64,000 nt of DNA from Phytoactinopolyspora halophila (GTDB lineage Bacteria > Actinomycetota > Actinomycetes > Jiangellales > Jiangellaceae), in NCBI RefSeq assembly GCF_003287285.1, contig NZ_QMIG01000007.1, positions 1 through 64,000 of the forward strand. Reading direction: 5' to 3'. Each line of letters opens with the position of its first letter. Position 1 is the stretch's first letter. The position numbers were made by a program, and so were the translations under genes. Below, in pieces: positions 27,718 to 33,610 of this stretch. The notes under the pieces are model-generated. The model was not told the DNA's origin. It saw only the letters and a program-made list of their open reading frames with translations, and searched no databases.

Positions 27718-27756
27718 TTGGCGCGCGCCCGGCCCGGAACGCTATAGTGCCCTCTC
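27718..27756 (+). promoter_or_regulatory. Probable aroF promoter giving a leaderless leader peptide
   Basis: TATAGT at 27743-27748 is a good -10 box. The best -35 candidate is TTGGCG at 27718-27723, with a long 19-base spacer. The expected start site (27755-27757) falls on or next to the GTG of the leader peptide, so its message would be leaderless, as is common in actinobacteria. Confidence 0.55.
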
Positions 27757-27825
27757 GTGGTCGAGATTCGCTGGTATTGGCGCTTTACGTCGGCTCCGGG
27801 TGGAGCCGGCGGTCAGACGCGCTGA
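27757..27825 (+). CDS. Aromatic attenuator leader peptide (22 residues)
   Basis: GTG 27757 opens a 22-codon frame ending at TGA 27823-27825, with an in-frame TAG four codons upstream. Codons 6-10 read Trp-Tyr-Trp-Arg-Phe (RWYWRF with the preceding Arg), giving four aromatic residues in five codons. All three end products of the pathway begun by DAHP synthase are represented. A terminator hairpin lies 25 bases after its stop and the DAHP synthase gene follows. This is the classic layout of ribosome-mediated attenuation. The start codon appears to coincide with the transcript start. Confidence 0.8.
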   Translation: MVEIRWYWRFTSAPGGAGGQTR

Positions 27826-27876
27826 CCAGCCCTCACCCGGAGCCAGCCAGGCAGAGACCGTCGGTCTCTGCCTTTT
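27792..27876 (+). promoter_or_regulatory. Attenuator of the DAHP synthase gene
   Basis: Three structures are visible. GGCTCCGGGTG (27792-27802) pairs perfectly with 27834-27844, enclosing a small hairpin (27811-27816 with 27822-27827) that contains the leader stop codon. A local hairpin, 27792-27797 with 27802-27807, competes with the long helix. The terminator is GGCAGAGACC (27850-27859) paired with 27863-27872 and followed by TTTT. A ribosome stalled on the Trp/Tyr/Phe codons would cover the first segment of the long helix and change folding. I could not derive the exact antiterminator pairing by eye. Confidence 0.75.
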
Positions 27877-27945
27877 GTCATTCAGGCGGGCCGGCCGGGT
27901 GAGTACCGCGGGCGTCCCGCCCCGAGACGAGGAACGGACCCGCGA

Positions 27946-29046
27946 ATGTGTCAGAGCGAACCCCATCGATCCACACGCAATCCGAGCAGTGATGCCTCGA
28001 GTGTCAGTGATCTGCGCGTCGCCGGCTTCCAACCGCTCGATGCACCCCGTCAGCTCCTGGAGGAGCTTCCCCTTGACGACCGGCACGCCGCGACGGTGCG
28101 CACGTCCCGGGATGAGGTGCGTTCGATCGTCTCCGGCGACGACGACCGCCTGCTCGTCGTGGTGGGCCCGTGCTCGATCCACGATCCCGATGCGGCCCTC
28201 GATTACGCTCGCCGGCTCGCTCCCGTGGCCCGCGAGCTGGACGACGACCTGCGCATCGTCATGCGGGTGTACTTCGAGAAGCCACGCACCACGGTGGGGT
28301 GGAAGGGCCTGATCAATGACCCCGGCCTCGACGGATCCCACGACGTCCGGCGGGGCCTGCGCATCGCCCGGGAGCTACTGTTCGACGTGCTCGACACCGG
28401 CCTGCCCGCGGGATGCGAGTTCCTCGAACCGATCAGCCCGCAGTACATCGCCGACACCGTCTCGTGGGGTGCCATCGGCGCCCGAACTCCGGAAAGCCAG
28501 GTCCACCGCCAGCTTGCCTCCGGCCTGTCGATGCCGGTAGGGGTCAAGAACGCGACGAGCGGAGATGTCCAGGCGGCCATCGACGGATGTATCGCGGCCG
28601 CGCACCGCCACGTGTTCTTCGGCGTGGACGAGGACGGCCGCGCGGCTGCGGTCTCCACCATCGGCAACCCGGACTGCCACGTCATCCTGCGCGGCGGCAG
28701 CGCCGGCCCGAACTACGGGCCCACCGACGTTCGCGACGCGCTGGCCCTGCTGCACAAGGCCGAGCTGCCACAGCGGCTCGTCATCGACGCCAGTCATGGC
28801 AACAGCGGCAAGGACCATCTCCGGCAAGCCGTGGTGGCCCGGGAGATCGCCGAGCAGATCGCCGGCGGCGAGACGGGGATCGCCGGGGTGATGCTGGAGA
28901 GCTTCCTCGAAGCCGGCCGCCAGGACCTCGACGGTTCGTCCCTGACGTACGGCCAGAGCGTCACCGACGCTTGCATGGACTGGGCGAGTACCGAGGAGCT
29001 CCTGGGTGAGCTCGCCGCCGCGGTTCGCGCCCGCCGCCAGGCCTAG
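27946..29046 (+). CDS. 3-deoxy-7-phosphoheptulonate synthase, class I
   Basis: This enzyme joins phosphoenolpyruvate and erythrose 4-phosphate at the start of the shikimate pathway. The 366-residue protein is of the E. coli AroF/G/H class. Marks are LLVVVGPCSIHDPDAALDYA near residues 68-87, MRVYFEKPRTTVGWKGLINDP near 106-126, ILRGGSAGPNYG and VIDASHGNSGKDH. Many actinobacteria also carry a class II enzyme; whether this one does lies outside the window. Expression is probably set by the attenuator upstream, which reads aromatic aminoacyl-tRNA supply. GAGGAA lies about 12 bases before the ATG. Confidence 0.94.
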   Translation: MCQSEPHRSTRNPSSDASSVSDLRVAGFQPLDAPRQLLEELPLDDRHAATVRTSRDEVRSIVSGDDDRLLVVVGPCSIHDPDAALDYARRLAPVARELDDDLRIVMRVYFEKPRTTVGWKGLINDPGLDGSHDVRRGLRIARELLFDVLDTGLPAGCEFLEPISPQYIADTVSWGAIGARTPESQVHRQLASGLSMPVGVKNATSGDVQAAIDGCIAAAHRHVFFGVDEDGRAAAVSTIGNPDCHVILRGGSAGPNYGPTDVRDALALLHKAELPQRLVIDASHGNSGKDHLRQAVVAREIAEQIAGGETGIAGVMLESFLEAGRQDLDGSSLTYGQSVTDACMDWASTEELLGELAAAVRARRQA

Positions 29047-29112: not shown

Positions 29113-29205
29113 GCCGTGCACGCCGAGACCACACCGGAAAACGCCTTCCGCGATCGATCGACGTGGTCTGGGCGTGCACGGCGCGTGGTCTGGGCGTGCA
29201 CGGCG
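29113..29205. repeat. 22-bp tandem repeat with an inverted partner between convergent genes
   Basis: A 22-bp unit occurs at 29162-29183 and 29184-29205. Bases 29113-29132 are its inverted complement (19 of 20 match 29163-29182). A transcript from either strand would form a long stem. It lies between the convergent aroF and selD stops, so a bidirectional terminator is the simplest reading. Confidence 0.75.
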
Positions 29206-29251
29206 CGCGGGCCTCACCGCGCATGGCGCCGTGTGCCGGGAGCGGGCGAAG

Positions 29252-30346
29252 CTAGCGGACGGCGACGGTGACGTCGCCAGACCAGGCAGGGACTAGCTCG
29301 CCCACGACCGGATGGCCCGGGATCTCGCCGGCAACGAGCAGCCCGCCCGACGTCTGCGCGTCCGCCAGCAGGAGCAGCTCGCTCTCGTCCAGATCGGCCG
29401 TGCGGCCAGAATCGCCGCCGCGGGGATCGACGTGTGGCCGCACCCATTCCAGGTTGCGCCGCGTCCCGCCGCTGACGTAGCCCTGCGCGAGAGCTTCGCG
29501 CGCCCCGTCCACGTACGGTATCTGGCCCGCATACACGACCGCGCCCACGCCGCTCGCCCGGGCCAGCTTGTGCAGGTGGCCAAGGAAGCCGAAGCCGGTG
29601 ACGTCGGTGGCGCACCGTGCTCCCAGCTCAACAGCCGCGCGGGCCGCGTCCCGGTTGAGCTCCGCCATCACCTCGATCGCTGCCGGGGACACCTCGCCGG
29701 TCGCCTTGTGGCGGTTGTTGAGCACGCCAAGTCCCAGGGGTTTGGTCAGCGTCAATGGCTGGCCAGCCGTTCCGGCGTCGTTGCGCAACAGCCGGTGCGC
29801 GTCGGCGATGCCGGTCACCGCCATGCCGTACTTCGGCTCCGGGTCGTCGACGCTGTGCCCGCCCGCCACATGGCAGCCGGCCGTGCGCGCGACGTCCAGG
29901 CCACCGCGCAGTACCTCGCTGGCCACATCCATGGGCAGCACGTCCCGAGGCCACCCCAGCAGATTCAGCGCCACCACGGGCTGTCCACCCATGGCGTAGA
30001 TGTCGGACAGCGCGTTGGCCGTGGCGATCCGCCCCCAGTCGTAGGCGTCGTCGACGACGGGGGTGAAGAAGTCCGCGGTGGCCAGCACGGCTCGATCGCC
30101 GTCGATGCGGACGGCAGCGGCGTCGTCGCCGTCGTCCAGACCGACGACGAGCCCGCCAACCGAACCCGGGGAACCGGGCGAACCTGGGGAACCCGGGGAA
30201 CGTGCGCCCACGAGGCCGGACATGACGTCCTCCAGCTCCCCCGGCGGGATCTTGCACGCGCACCCTCCACCGTGGGCATACTGCGTGAGCCGGATGTGCT
30301 GGCCGGGTCGTGTCCGCTGGATTCCCTGGTCTTCCGTCACCGTCAT
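29252..30346 (-). CDS. Selenide, water dikinase
   Basis: SelD makes selenophosphate from selenide and ATP, the selenium donor for SelA. The 364-residue protein starts at ATG 30346 with AAGGAG just before it. The active-site segment is GGGCACKIPPGELEDV, so this is the cysteine form, not a selenoprotein. The ATP-binding pattern includes LATADFFTPVVDDAYDWGRIATANALSD. A Pro-Gly-Ser-rich insert (SPGSPGSPGSV) lies near residue 55. It is transcribed away from tRNA-Sec, selA and selB across a 60-base divergent region, so supply and use of selenophosphate can be co-controlled. Confidence 0.96.
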   Translation of the reverse strand: MTVTEDQGIQRTRPGQHIRLTQYAHGGGCACKIPPGELEDVMSGLVGARSPGSPGSPGSPGSVGGLVVGLDDGDDAAAVRIDGDRAVLATADFFTPVVDDAYDWGRIATANALSDIYAMGGQPVVALNLLGWPRDVLPMDVASEVLRGGLDVARTAGCHVAGGHSVDDPEPKYGMAVTGIADAHRLLRNDAGTAGQPLTLTKPLGLGVLNNRHKATGEVSPAAIEVMAELNRDAARAAVELGARCATDVTGFGFLGHLHKLARASGVGAVVYAGQIPYVDGAREALAQGYVSGGTRRNLEWVRPHVDPRGGDSGRTADLDESELLLLADAQTSGGLLVAGEIPGHPVVGELVPAWSGDVTVAVR

Positions 30347-30406
30347 GGCTCCTTCAATGCCCACATCACGTCGTTTGACACACCCGATTGTGGTTAGCGT
30401 GGACGT

Positions 30407-30499
30407 GGAGGCGTTTAGGTGGCTGGTGCCCCTCCCGGTCTTCAAAACCGGTGTGGCCCGGGAACCGGGCCAGGCGGGTTCGATTCCCGTCCGTCTCCG
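30407..30499 (+). tRNA. tRNA-Sec (anticodon TCA)
   Basis: The 93-base RNA has acceptor GGAGGCG paired with CGTCTCC (30492-30498, one G-U) and discriminator G. The anticodon stem CCGGT/ACCGG carries loop CTTCAAA with TCA at 30442-30444. A long variable arm follows (TGGCCCGG, GAA, CCGGGCCA), then T arm GCGGGTTCGATTCCCGT. The D stem is long with a four-base TGGT loop and one mismatch. CCA is not encoded (CTA follows). These are the marks of the UGA-decoding selenocysteine tRNA. selA begins 24 bases later. Confidence 0.95.
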
Positions 30500-30522
30500 C
30501 TACCGATCACAGGAGGTGTGGC

Positions 30523-31848
30523 GTGCTCTCCGAACACGACGCGGAATCGCGGCGCCGCATCCCGGGGACAGACACGTTGCTCGCCGAACCCCGGTTCACC
30601 GCCGCGACGTCGGCCCTCGGCCGCGACCTCGTGAAGGCCGCCATCACCCAGGCACAGGACCGTGCCCGCCGGGGTGAGATCACGCCCGAGGACGTCGGGG
30701 ACACCGCCGCAGGGTCGCTTCCCCCACGGGCGAGCACGCTACGCCCAGTGATCAACGCGACGGGTGTCGTCTTGCACACCAACCTGGGACGCGCTCCCTT
30801 GTCCCCGGCGGCGGTAGCGGCCGTGCACGCCGCAGCGGGACACACCGACGTCGAGTACGACACGGACACCGGGCGCCGCGACCTCCGGGGACGCGGTGTC
30901 GTGGACGCTCTCGGCGCCGCCGTGCCCTCTGCCGAAGCCGCCCACGTCGTCAACAACGGCGCCGCCGCACTCGTGCTCGCCGCTACCGCGCTGGCGCCCG
31001 GTCAGGAGGTGGTGGTCAGCCGGGGCGAACTGGTCGAGATCGGGGATGGCTTCCGGCTGCCGGAACTGCTCGAATCGACCGGTGCCGTCCTGCGCGAGGT
31101 CGGGACGACGAACCGGACCAGGCTCGACGACTACCGCGCCGTTCTGGGCCCCGACACGGGATTCGTGCTGAAGGTTCACCCGTCGAACTTCGTCATCCAG
31201 GGATTCACGTCGTCGGTGTCCATCCGTGACCTAGCCCAGCTCGGTGCCACGGTGGTTGCCGACCTGGGCTCCGGGCTGCTCTCACCGGATCCCCTGCTTC
31301 CGGACGAGCCGGACGCATCGAGTGCGCTCGCCGACGGCGCCGCCCTGGTCACGGGCAGCGGCGACAAGCTGCTCGGCGGCCCGCAGGCCGGTCTGCTCCT
31401 GGGCCGTGCCGAGATCATCGAACAGCTTCGCCGCCACCCTCTCGCCCGGGCGCTCCGGGTGGACAAGCTCACCCTGGCCGCGCTGGAGGCGACACTGCGC
31501 GGCCCCGAGACGCCGACGTGGGCGGCACTGCGGCACGATGCCGCCGAGCTGCACGCCCGGGCGGAAGAACTACGGGACGGGCTCCGGCAAGACGGCGTCA
31601 CCTCGGAGACCGTCGAGACAGCCAGCGTCGTCGGCGGGGGTGGTGGCCCCGGGCTGGAGCTCACCTCGTGGGCGGTGGCCGTCGACCCCGGGCTAGCGGC
31701 CCCGTTACGACAGCACGAGCCCGCCGTAGTCGGCCGGCTCGAACGCGACCGGCTGCTGCTCGATCTGCGGTGCGTGCCTTCCGATCAGGATTCCACGCTG
31801 CGTTCCGCCGTCGTGTCCGCGTGGCACCGGCAAGCACGATCGGAGTGA
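30523..31848 (+). CDS. L-seryl-tRNA(Sec) selenium transferase
   Basis: SelA is the PLP enzyme that converts Ser-tRNA(Sec) to Sec-tRNA(Sec) using selenophosphate. The start is GTG at 30523 with AGGAGG just upstream; the frame extends back into the tRNA gene, so longer starts are artefacts. The 441 residues include INATGVVLHTNLGRAPLS near 77-94, the AAHVVNNGAAALVLA segment, and the PLP lysine in TGSGDKLLGGPQAG near residue 282. It sits between tRNA-Sec and selB, with one base between its stop and the selB ATG. Confidence 0.96.
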   Translation: MLSEHDAESRRRIPGTDTLLAEPRFTAATSALGRDLVKAAITQAQDRARRGEITPEDVGDTAAGSLPPRASTLRPVINATGVVLHTNLGRAPLSPAAVAAVHAAAGHTDVEYDTDTGRRDLRGRGVVDALGAAVPSAEAAHVVNNGAAALVLAATALAPGQEVVVSRGELVEIGDGFRLPELLESTGAVLREVGTTNRTRLDDYRAVLGPDTGFVLKVHPSNFVIQGFTSSVSIRDLAQLGATVVADLGSGLLSPDPLLPDEPDASSALADGAALVTGSGDKLLGGPQAGLLLGRAEIIEQLRRHPLARALRVDKLTLAALEATLRGPETPTWAALRHDAAELHARAEELRDGLRQDGVTSETVETASVVGGGGGPGLELTSWAVAVDPGLAAPLRQHEPAVVGRLERDRLLLDLRCVPSDQDSTLRSAVVSAWHRQARSE

Positions 31849-31849
31849 C

Positions 31850-33610
31850 ATGCACGTCGTCGCCACAGCCGGGCATGTCGACCACGGCAAGTCGACGCTC
31901 GTCCGGGCGCTCACCGGAATGGAGCCCGACCGGTGGGACGAGGAACATCGCCGTGGGTTGACGATCGATCTCGGCTTCGCCTGGACGGAGCTGCCTTCGG
32001 CCGGCACGCTCGCGTTCGTCGACGTCCCGGGCCATCACCGGTTCGTGCCGAACATGCTCGCCGGGGTCGGGCCGGTGCCCGCCGTGCTCTTCGTCGTCGC
32101 GGCCGACGAGGGCTGGATGCCGCAGTCTGCCGAGCATCTCGACGCCGCGCACGCGCTGGGTGTGTGGCACGGCCTGCTCGCCATCACCCGCAGTGATCTC
32201 GCCGATCCCGCACCGGCCGCGGCGGAGGCGCTCGCCGAGATCAATGAGACGACACTCGGCGACGTCGCCGCCATCCCGGTCAGCGCACCCACGGGTAGCG
32301 GCCTGGACGACCTCGTGACCGCCTTGGACGACCTCGCCGGGCGGCTACCCCAGCCGGATGTCGACGCCCCGGTGCGCCTCTGGGTCGACCGTTCGTTCAC
32401 GATCCGGGGCAGCGGCACCGTCGTCACCGGTACCCTCCCGGCCGGGCGCCTCCGAGTGGGCGACGAGCTGGAGATCCCATCGCTGGGACGCACCGCCGGA
32501 GTGCGCGCCCTGCAATGCCTGGGCCGTCCCGTGACCGAAGCGGGCGCCGTCGCCCGGGTCGCGGTCAACCTGCGCGGGGTGCCCGCAGACGCGCTGCACC
32601 GCGGCGACGCCGTGCTCACCCCGCAGCGCTTCCGCACGAGCGATGTGCTCGACGCGCGCCTCGACCGGACCGGTGACGATCCGCTGCCGCAGCACCTGAT
32701 GCTGCACATCGGTTCGGCCGCGGTGACAGCGCGGGTGCGCCCGCTCGGGTCCGACACCGTGCGGCTGACACTTTCCGGCGCGCTGCCGCTGCGTGTCGGA
32801 GACCGCGGCCTGCTACGCGAGCCGGGGCGGCACCGCGTCCTCGGCGGCACCACCGTCCTTGACGTGGCGCCGCCGGCACTCACCCGTCGCGGCGCCGCCG
32901 CCGAGCGCGCTCGCATCCTCAGCACCCTCGACGGCGAGCCCGACGAGCACTCGGAGCTGCGCCGCCGCGGCATCGTCCGCAAGGACGAGCTGAAACGTAT
33001 GGGCGTGCCGGTCACGTCCCGGCCGGTCGCCGCCGGCTGGGTGGTCGACGAGAAGCTGTGGGCGGAGCTGCGTTCCCGGCTGCCGGACGTCGTCGCCCGA
33101 TGGCGCCAGGCCAACCCGCTGGAAACCGGCCCTCCCGTCGACGTCGTCCGGCAGCAACTCGACCTGCCCGAGCGCTCGCTCGTCCACGCTCTCGTGTCAC
33201 CACCGCTGGCGATCAGGGCGGGCCGGGTGGTGCGCGACGACACCGCGCAGGTCGATCACCTCCCTGCGCCGGTCGCGAAGGCGGTCGACGAGCTGCGCGC
33301 CCGGCTGGCGGCGGAACCGCTCGTCGCTCCGGACGCCACGCAGCTCGCCGAGCTGGGACTCGGGCGTCGCGAGCTCGCCGCCGCGGATCGCGCCGGAGTC
33401 CTGGTCCGTATCGGCGACGGCGTGGTGCTCCTGCCGGAGAGCATCGACGAGGCGGTACGAACGCTGCGCACGTTGTCCGGCCCGTTCACCGTCAGTGATG
33501 CCCGCCAGGCATGGGGAACGACCCGGCGCGTGGCGATACCGCTGCTCCAGTACCTGGATCGGCACGAGATCACCGAACGGCTCCCGGATGACCGCCGGCA
33601 ACTGCGCTAG
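31850..33610 (+). CDS. Selenocysteine-specific elongation factor
   Basis: SelB brings Sec-tRNA to ribosomes paused at UGA and recognises the SECIS hairpin. The 586 residues show an EF-Tu-like GTPase domain: P-loop AGHVDHGKST at residues 5-14, DVPGHHRFVPNML near 57-69 and ITRSDLAD. Beta-barrel domains II and III follow to about 340, then C-terminal winged helices (about 350-586) that would bind the SECIS RNA. Its stop TAG overlaps the convergent fdhC stop by sharing the palindrome CTAG at 33607-33610, leaving no room for a terminator. Confidence 0.96.
   Translation: MHVVATAGHVDHGKSTLVRALTGMEPDRWDEEHRRGLTIDLGFAWTELPSAGTLAFVDVPGHHRFVPNMLAGVGPVPAVLFVVAADEGWMPQSAEHLDAAHALGVWHGLLAITRSDLADPAPAAAEALAEINETTLGDVAAIPVSAPTGSGLDDLVTALDDLAGRLPQPDVDAPVRLWVDRSFTIRGSGTVVTGTLPAGRLRVGDELEIPSLGRTAGVRALQCLGRPVTEAGAVARVAVNLRGVPADALHRGDAVLTPQRFRTSDVLDARLDRTGDDPLPQHLMLHIGSAAVTARVRPLGSDTVRLTLSGALPLRVGDRGLLREPGRHRVLGGTTVLDVAPPALTRRGAAAERARILSTLDGEPDEHSELRRRGIVRKDELKRMGVPVTSRPVAAGWVVDEKLWAELRSRLPDVVARWRQANPLETGPPVDVVRQQLDLPERSLVHALVSPPLAIRAGRVVRDDTAQVDHLPAPVAKAVDELRARLAAEPLVAPDATQLAELGLGRRELAAADRAGVLVRIGDGVVLLPESIDEAVRTLRTLSGPFTVSDARQAWGTTRRVAIPLLQYLDRHEITERLPDDRRQLR

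Follow-up and report, generated by a model that had tools for sequence, protein, structure and literature searches.

DAHP synthase is the gate enzyme for all of the aromatic amino acids. The closest described system to the one discussed here is aroR of Corynebacterium glutamicum, a Phe-Tyr-Phe leader peptide located before aroF (Neshat et al. 2014, via PMC11802643 and PMC4046766); aroF transcription is reported there to rise upon limitation for Phe and not for Tyr. Leaderless leader peptides have been described for the trp, leu and ilv genes of Streptomyces lividans, a list in which no DAHP synthase gene has an aromatic leader (PMC8079986), and for trpL of Sinorhizobium meliloti (PMC10117765). 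Of the S. lividans leaders, those for trp and leu carry one kind of regulatory residue, and that for ilv is mixed, a precedent for the sensing of several amino acids. The ilvBNC attenuator of C. glutamicum also has a leaderless-type start, and its antiterminator and terminator hairpins abut (PMC11857589). A survey of the Actinobacteria in 2005 reported no conserved RNA structure for Phe or Tyr genes (PMC1262725).

In the window (the whole stretch of 64,000 nucleotides from Phytoactinopolyspora halophila that was analysed) a short ORF with clustered aromatic codons lies directly 5′ of a type I DAHP synthase gene, as does the short aromatic leader of aroR. We consider it probable that aroF is controlled here by ribosome-mediated attenuation, through an element homologous to aroR in position and leader design and likely a member of the aroR family of attenuators. 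Unlike aroR, with its Phe-Tyr-Phe peptide and response to Phe only, the leader of the window reads Trp-Tyr-Trp-Arg-Phe, a comparison made with aroR as described in print. It resembles the S. lividans and S. meliloti leaders in that its regulatory codons are carried by a short ORF, probably leaderless, that precedes a biosynthetic gene, and differs from the S. lividans trp and leu leaders in its mixed block. A preliminary description of this DNA had called such an arrangement "little described," which cannot be maintained given aroR and the leaderless trp, leu and ilv leaders. The mixed Trp-Tyr-Phe block, the actinobacterial spread, the bias to TAT and TTT and the arrangement of RNA segments set out below were not found in the open-access literature searched.

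The regulated gene, aroF (27946..29046, + strand; NCBIfam TIGR00034, E 8.5e-150), is the sole match to a type I DAHP synthase in the genome (5.04 Mb in 77 contigs); a type II enzyme is encoded once, elsewhere in the genome. Directly 3′ of aroF, at 29163-29206, is a tandem unit of approximately 22 bp (GTGGTCTGGGCGTGCACGGCGC), and a selenocysteine cluster (29252-33610) adjoins the gene. Judging by their sequences, this cluster holds a selD-like gene on the - strand and selA-like and selB-like genes on the + strand, with a tRNA-Sec (30407-30498; Rfam, 78 bits) between the former and the latter two.

The leader ORF (MVEIRWYWRFTSAPGGAGGQTR; 27757..27825, + strand) has 22 codons, from GTG (27757-27759) to a TGA stop codon (27823-27825), and the Trp-Tyr-Trp-Arg-Phe frame proposed earlier was borne out. 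Its codons are GTG GTC GAG ATT CGC TGG TAT TGG CGC TTT ACG TCG GCT CCG GGT GGA GCC GGC GGT CAG ACG CGC TGA, of which TGG TAT TGG CGC TTT (27772..27786, + strand) are the presumptive sensing codons, in view of the conserved Tyr and Phe positions and the preference for TAT and TTT among relatives. A putative -10 promoter element, TATAGT (27743..27748, + strand), had been placed nine bases upstream of the start; the hexamer is present, and the gap to the GTG is 8 nt. No convincing -35 box was seen upstream of the leader of the window.

A chance test counted short ORFs whose start follows a -10 element at a distance of 6-8 nt and that have at least 4 aromatic residues in 6 codons. The two strands of the window together hold one such leaderless-type ORF, with its hairpin, and both strands of 60 Markov-simulated 64-kb windows sharing the dinucleotide make-up of the original hold none; the leader element is not a product of chance. 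None of the Rfam models for amino-acid leaders and T-boxes matched the window at gathering scores or any of 13 loci at E values up to 1, and NCBIfam and Pfam leader-peptide profiles matched none of 8 leaders, very short peptides being hard for profiles.

Type I aroF genes were collected from relatives and the wider Actinomycetes, and the DNA upstream of each was read. Every one of the 19 same-family loci that could be read, the window among them, has the leader (one more, L082, has masked upstream DNA and stands outside the 19). Of 170 actinobacterial aroF loci, some genomes being counted twice, 131 carry a related leader, for a total of 108 unique peptides. Typical blocks are RWYWRF, RAYWRF, RYFWF, RWYAYF, SYRWF and RRYPYF. 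With the last Phe as anchor, Tyr occupies position -3 in 93 of 107 leaders, and Trp is found at -4 in 20, at -2 in 36 and at -1 in 42 cases; all three residues occur within the block of 95 of the 108 unique leaders. In some groups no aromatic leader was detected before the type I aroF orthologues, notably in family f17 (e.g. L101, L108, L109, L112 and L117).

Among the same-family leaders Trp is present in five of 19, two of these having two Trp, and absent from the other 14; RRYxYF occurs in 12 and YF alone in two. Because these leaders mostly lack Trp and keep Tyr and Phe, Tyr-x-x-Phe looks like the near-constant core, with Trp a frequent yet dispensable addition. The earlier claim that the peptide senses all three amino acids is thereby reduced to something that can only be inferred, the more so as aroR is reported to be Phe-responsive and not Tyr-responsive; sensing of all three by the leader is plausible. 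Two loci (L194, MRNWRFYFEWGSGR; L195, MRMWRFYFSKAPEAETS) carry WRFYF leaders, which include Phe-Tyr-Phe, with matching promoter spacing; their genus, which shares its family with the mycobacterial loci, is probably Corynebacterium. A primer-derived pattern, applied to 151 genomes of one genus, did not detect the C. glutamicum aroF itself.

The codons at the sensing positions are markedly skewed. In the leaders Tyr is encoded by TAT 119 times and by TAC 10 times, and Phe by TTT 115 times and TTC 27 times, versus 3 TAT, 298 TAC, 3 TTT and 412 TTC in the bodies of the same set of aroF genes. Only 37 of 271 Tyr and Phe leader codons end in G or C, as compared to 441 of 601 other codons in the same stretch. 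In bacteria one tRNA usually reads both Tyr codons, and one both Phe codons; if this is so here, the preference for TAT and TTT cannot rest on the choice of isoacceptor. Attenuators are known to employ rare or sensitive regulatory codons by design, a principle that rests there on different isoacceptors (PMC1183508). The preference poses a testable question, namely what tunes attenuators.

Since the 108 leaders had been picked with the promoter in mind, the promoter spacing was retested with a promoter-blind set of 96 unique leaders, picked by peptide motif alone. A TANNNT element was found 3-15 nt before the in-frame start in 94 of these 96, and the distances have a sharp maximum at 7 nt, the exact distance of 75 of the hits tallied. 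A Shine-Dalgarno-like sequence precedes just 6 of the 108 leaders; TTG at a spacer of 17-19, as expected of a -35 box, was seen in just 19 of 108. The sharp spacing and the scarcity of Shine-Dalgarno-like sequences support, and do not prove, a leaderless start, with the transcript probably beginning at the start codon of the leader. These results agree with the earlier view of an aromatic leader peptide at the very start of the message, which is probably leaderless; the peptide is conserved before orthologous aroF genes.

Four RNA elements can be recognized in and beyond the ORF of the window. The terminator-like hairpin T (27849..27876, + strand) rests on sequence, folding and covariation; its arms (27849-27859 and 27863-27873) enclose a GTC loop and are followed by TTT. 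It had been described as a perfect 10-bp terminator with TTTT located 70 bases before aroF; the hairpin is there, upstream of the gene, with a stem of 11 bp, a tract that reaches TTTT only with the last paired base, and 72 nt between the stem and the ATG at 27946. Segment R1 (GGCTCCGGGTG; 27792..27802, + strand) lies within the leader ORF and pairs with R2 (CACCCGGAGCC; 27834..27844, + strand), 3′ of the stop codon, as judged from covariation and from own- versus cross-species pairing. Segment R3 (CCGGGTGAG; 27895..27903, + strand), recognized by a pairing test, is similar to a part of R1 and complementary to CTCACCCGG (27832-27840), with which it forms the R2:R3 helix of the window. The predicted fold of the leader region has an energy of -66.6 kcal/mol versus -47.7 kcal/mol for shuffles (z -4.8). 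Between T and the ribosome-binding site of aroF is a further hairpin, GGCGGG...CCCGCC (27885-27921), the loop of which holds R3; similar flanking stems are present in several relatives and may constitute a further layer.

Covariation was examined in an alignment (A1) of 23 diverse sequences, aligned without regard to structure. The R1:R2 and T helices show standard pairs in 96.3% of the alignment cells and 10 pairs with changes on both sides; none of 500 shuffles reached any of the five measures, and sliding the partners lowered the pairing to 34-49%. Changes on both sides across species were found in 7 of 9 tested pairs of the T stem, and RNAalifold independently recovered both helices. The alignment of orthologous upstream regions proposed in the preliminary description thus gives conserved Tyr and Phe codons together with covarying stems. 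T is conserved as a terminator-like hairpin 3′ of the leader ORF, with a short T-tract that is just TTCGTC in most same-family relatives.

Pairing of R1 with R2 scores 32.1 within species versus 24.8 between species (sd 0.63). For R2 with R3 the values are 22.5 and 20.7 (sd 0.47), 24 of 47 species exceeding 95% of their own shuffles, and support for this second helix is weaker than that for R1:R2. R3 is mostly located 14-20 nt 3′ of T in relatives. In Micromonospora (L047) R1 and R3 are identical (CAGCCGGCTCG), and a GGAT/ATCC change has occurred in R1, R2 and R3 together in L198 and in R2 and R3 in L196. R1:R2 and R2:R3 are mutually exclusive. The Rhodococcus, Nocardia and Amycolatopsis types are devoid of T and have, 3′ of the stop codon, a hairpin GAGCCGG...CCGGCTC of which R2 is a shared part. 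In the window type T stands apart from R1, R2 and R3, with no conserved upstream segment to pair with its 5′ arm.

From these features we surmise the following mode of action. Transcription would start at the GTG or within 1-2 nt of it, as the promoter spacing suggests, so that a 70S ribosome could start directly on the leader, which would be translated. A shortage of charged Tyr-, Phe- or Trp-tRNA would slow the ribosome at TGG TAT TGG CGC TTT, just 5′ of R1; if it stalled at Trp or Tyr, R1 would be left free, and if at Phe, approximately half of R1 would be. Free R1 would pair with R2, and aroF would be expressed. With charged tRNAs the ribosome would cover R1 and reach the stop codon beside R2, and with R1:R2 blocked the message would end at T or be held off by R2:R3. 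Taking R1:R2 as the ON helix and R2:R3 as the OFF helix is the simplest reading common to this type, the types devoid of T and the proteobacterial variants discussed below, and termination would take place at T.

How the switch acts on aroF may be read in other ways. Like the four-segment trp attenuator of E. coli (RF00513), the window would employ stalling on regulatory codons 5′ of a terminator, and an antiterminator pairing of GCCGGCGGUC (27805-27814) with GACCGUCGGU in T, 10 positions long and including two G-U pairs, can be drawn manually; among the upstream helices for T in the window (L001), the 7-nt core of this pairing is the best. This pairing is, however, not conserved even within the same family. 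Over 71 leaders no conserved upstream partner of the 5′ arm of T was found, and the arm appears to avoid such partners, its complementarity to upstream sequence (13.4) being less than that of shuffles (15.5). A textbook antiterminator is therefore missing, a trp-type one was rejected, and we regard the four-segment arrangement as very improbable. Unlike the E. coli trp attenuator, the window has neither an Rfam match nor a conserved antiterminator taking the 5′ arm of its terminator. When the ribosome was placed at the Phe or the stop codon, folding predicted T in every same-family sequence whatever the stall. The competing helices of the preliminary description are accordingly real as R1:R2 versus R2:R3, and not of the textbook kind. 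The abutting hairpins of ilvBNC (PMC11857589) may serve as a partial precedent for R1:R2 next to T; those hairpins share a GCC trinucleotide, whereas R1:R2 and T of the window share at most one base, and a third segment, R3, is present.

Control at the level of aroF translation, with the R1/R2/R3 switch gating the ribosome-binding site and T a structural spacer only, would account for the location of R3 between T and the aroF start and for the weak T-tract of many relatives; mycobacterial cysteine leaders have also been found without clear terminators. Sequestration of the Shine-Dalgarno sequence by R2:R3 was nevertheless rejected upon folding, since freeing or sequestering R2 gave no consistent change in its predicted accessibility (mean difference -0.002; 19 of 97 up and 16 down), and we hold translational attenuation to be unlikely. 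The least probable reading is that nothing is sensed here, a short ORF preceding a terminator that is constitutive or a hairpin that serves in processing; against it stand the conserved aromatic block, the selective use of TAT and TTT, the covariation of R2 with a segment inside the ORF, and the experimental attenuation reported for aroR in PMC11802643. Ribosome-mediated attenuation of aroF remains our preferred reading.

Leaders of a related kind occur in the Proteobacteria. In Xanthomonas (L041, L043) and Bradyrhizobium (L077, L081), and similarly in Bordetella (L050), leaders such as SFYFWYYGF are followed by CTGGCGG within the ORF and, downstream, by a true terminator, CCGCCAG...CTGGCGGCTTTTTT. 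The ORF segment CTGGCGG directly matches the terminator arm CCGCCAG in L041, L043, L057, L077 and L081, and in these loci it is a predicted direct antiterminator, a match that counts in favor of attenuation. Very aromatic leaders (e.g. SFYFWYYGF, AFYFYFYGF, SFYWYFSY) precede the DAHP synthase genes of eight proteobacterial loci (L041, L043, L050, L057, L071, L077, L078 and L081), with a strong terminator after most of them and a -10-like element near the start codon in several.

A more ambitious reading, which we offer only tentatively and think somewhat doubtful as a whole, is that these are class-wide leaderless leaders in which one peptide would read three aromatic tRNAs, tuned by rare TAT and TTT codons, and R1 and R3 would compete for R2 in a three-way switch lacking the usual antiterminator; the Proteobacteria would have a simpler form, in which R2:R3 is itself the terminator. 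As compared to the 2005 survey (PMC1262725), a conserved element is found here before aroF in most of the actinobacterial loci sampled, and some Proteobacteria have leaders that resemble it. The element offers a precise target for deregulating aromatic production and, if the proposal is true, the integration of three amino acids by one leader would achieve in RNA what E. coli does with three isoenzymes, each inhibited separately.
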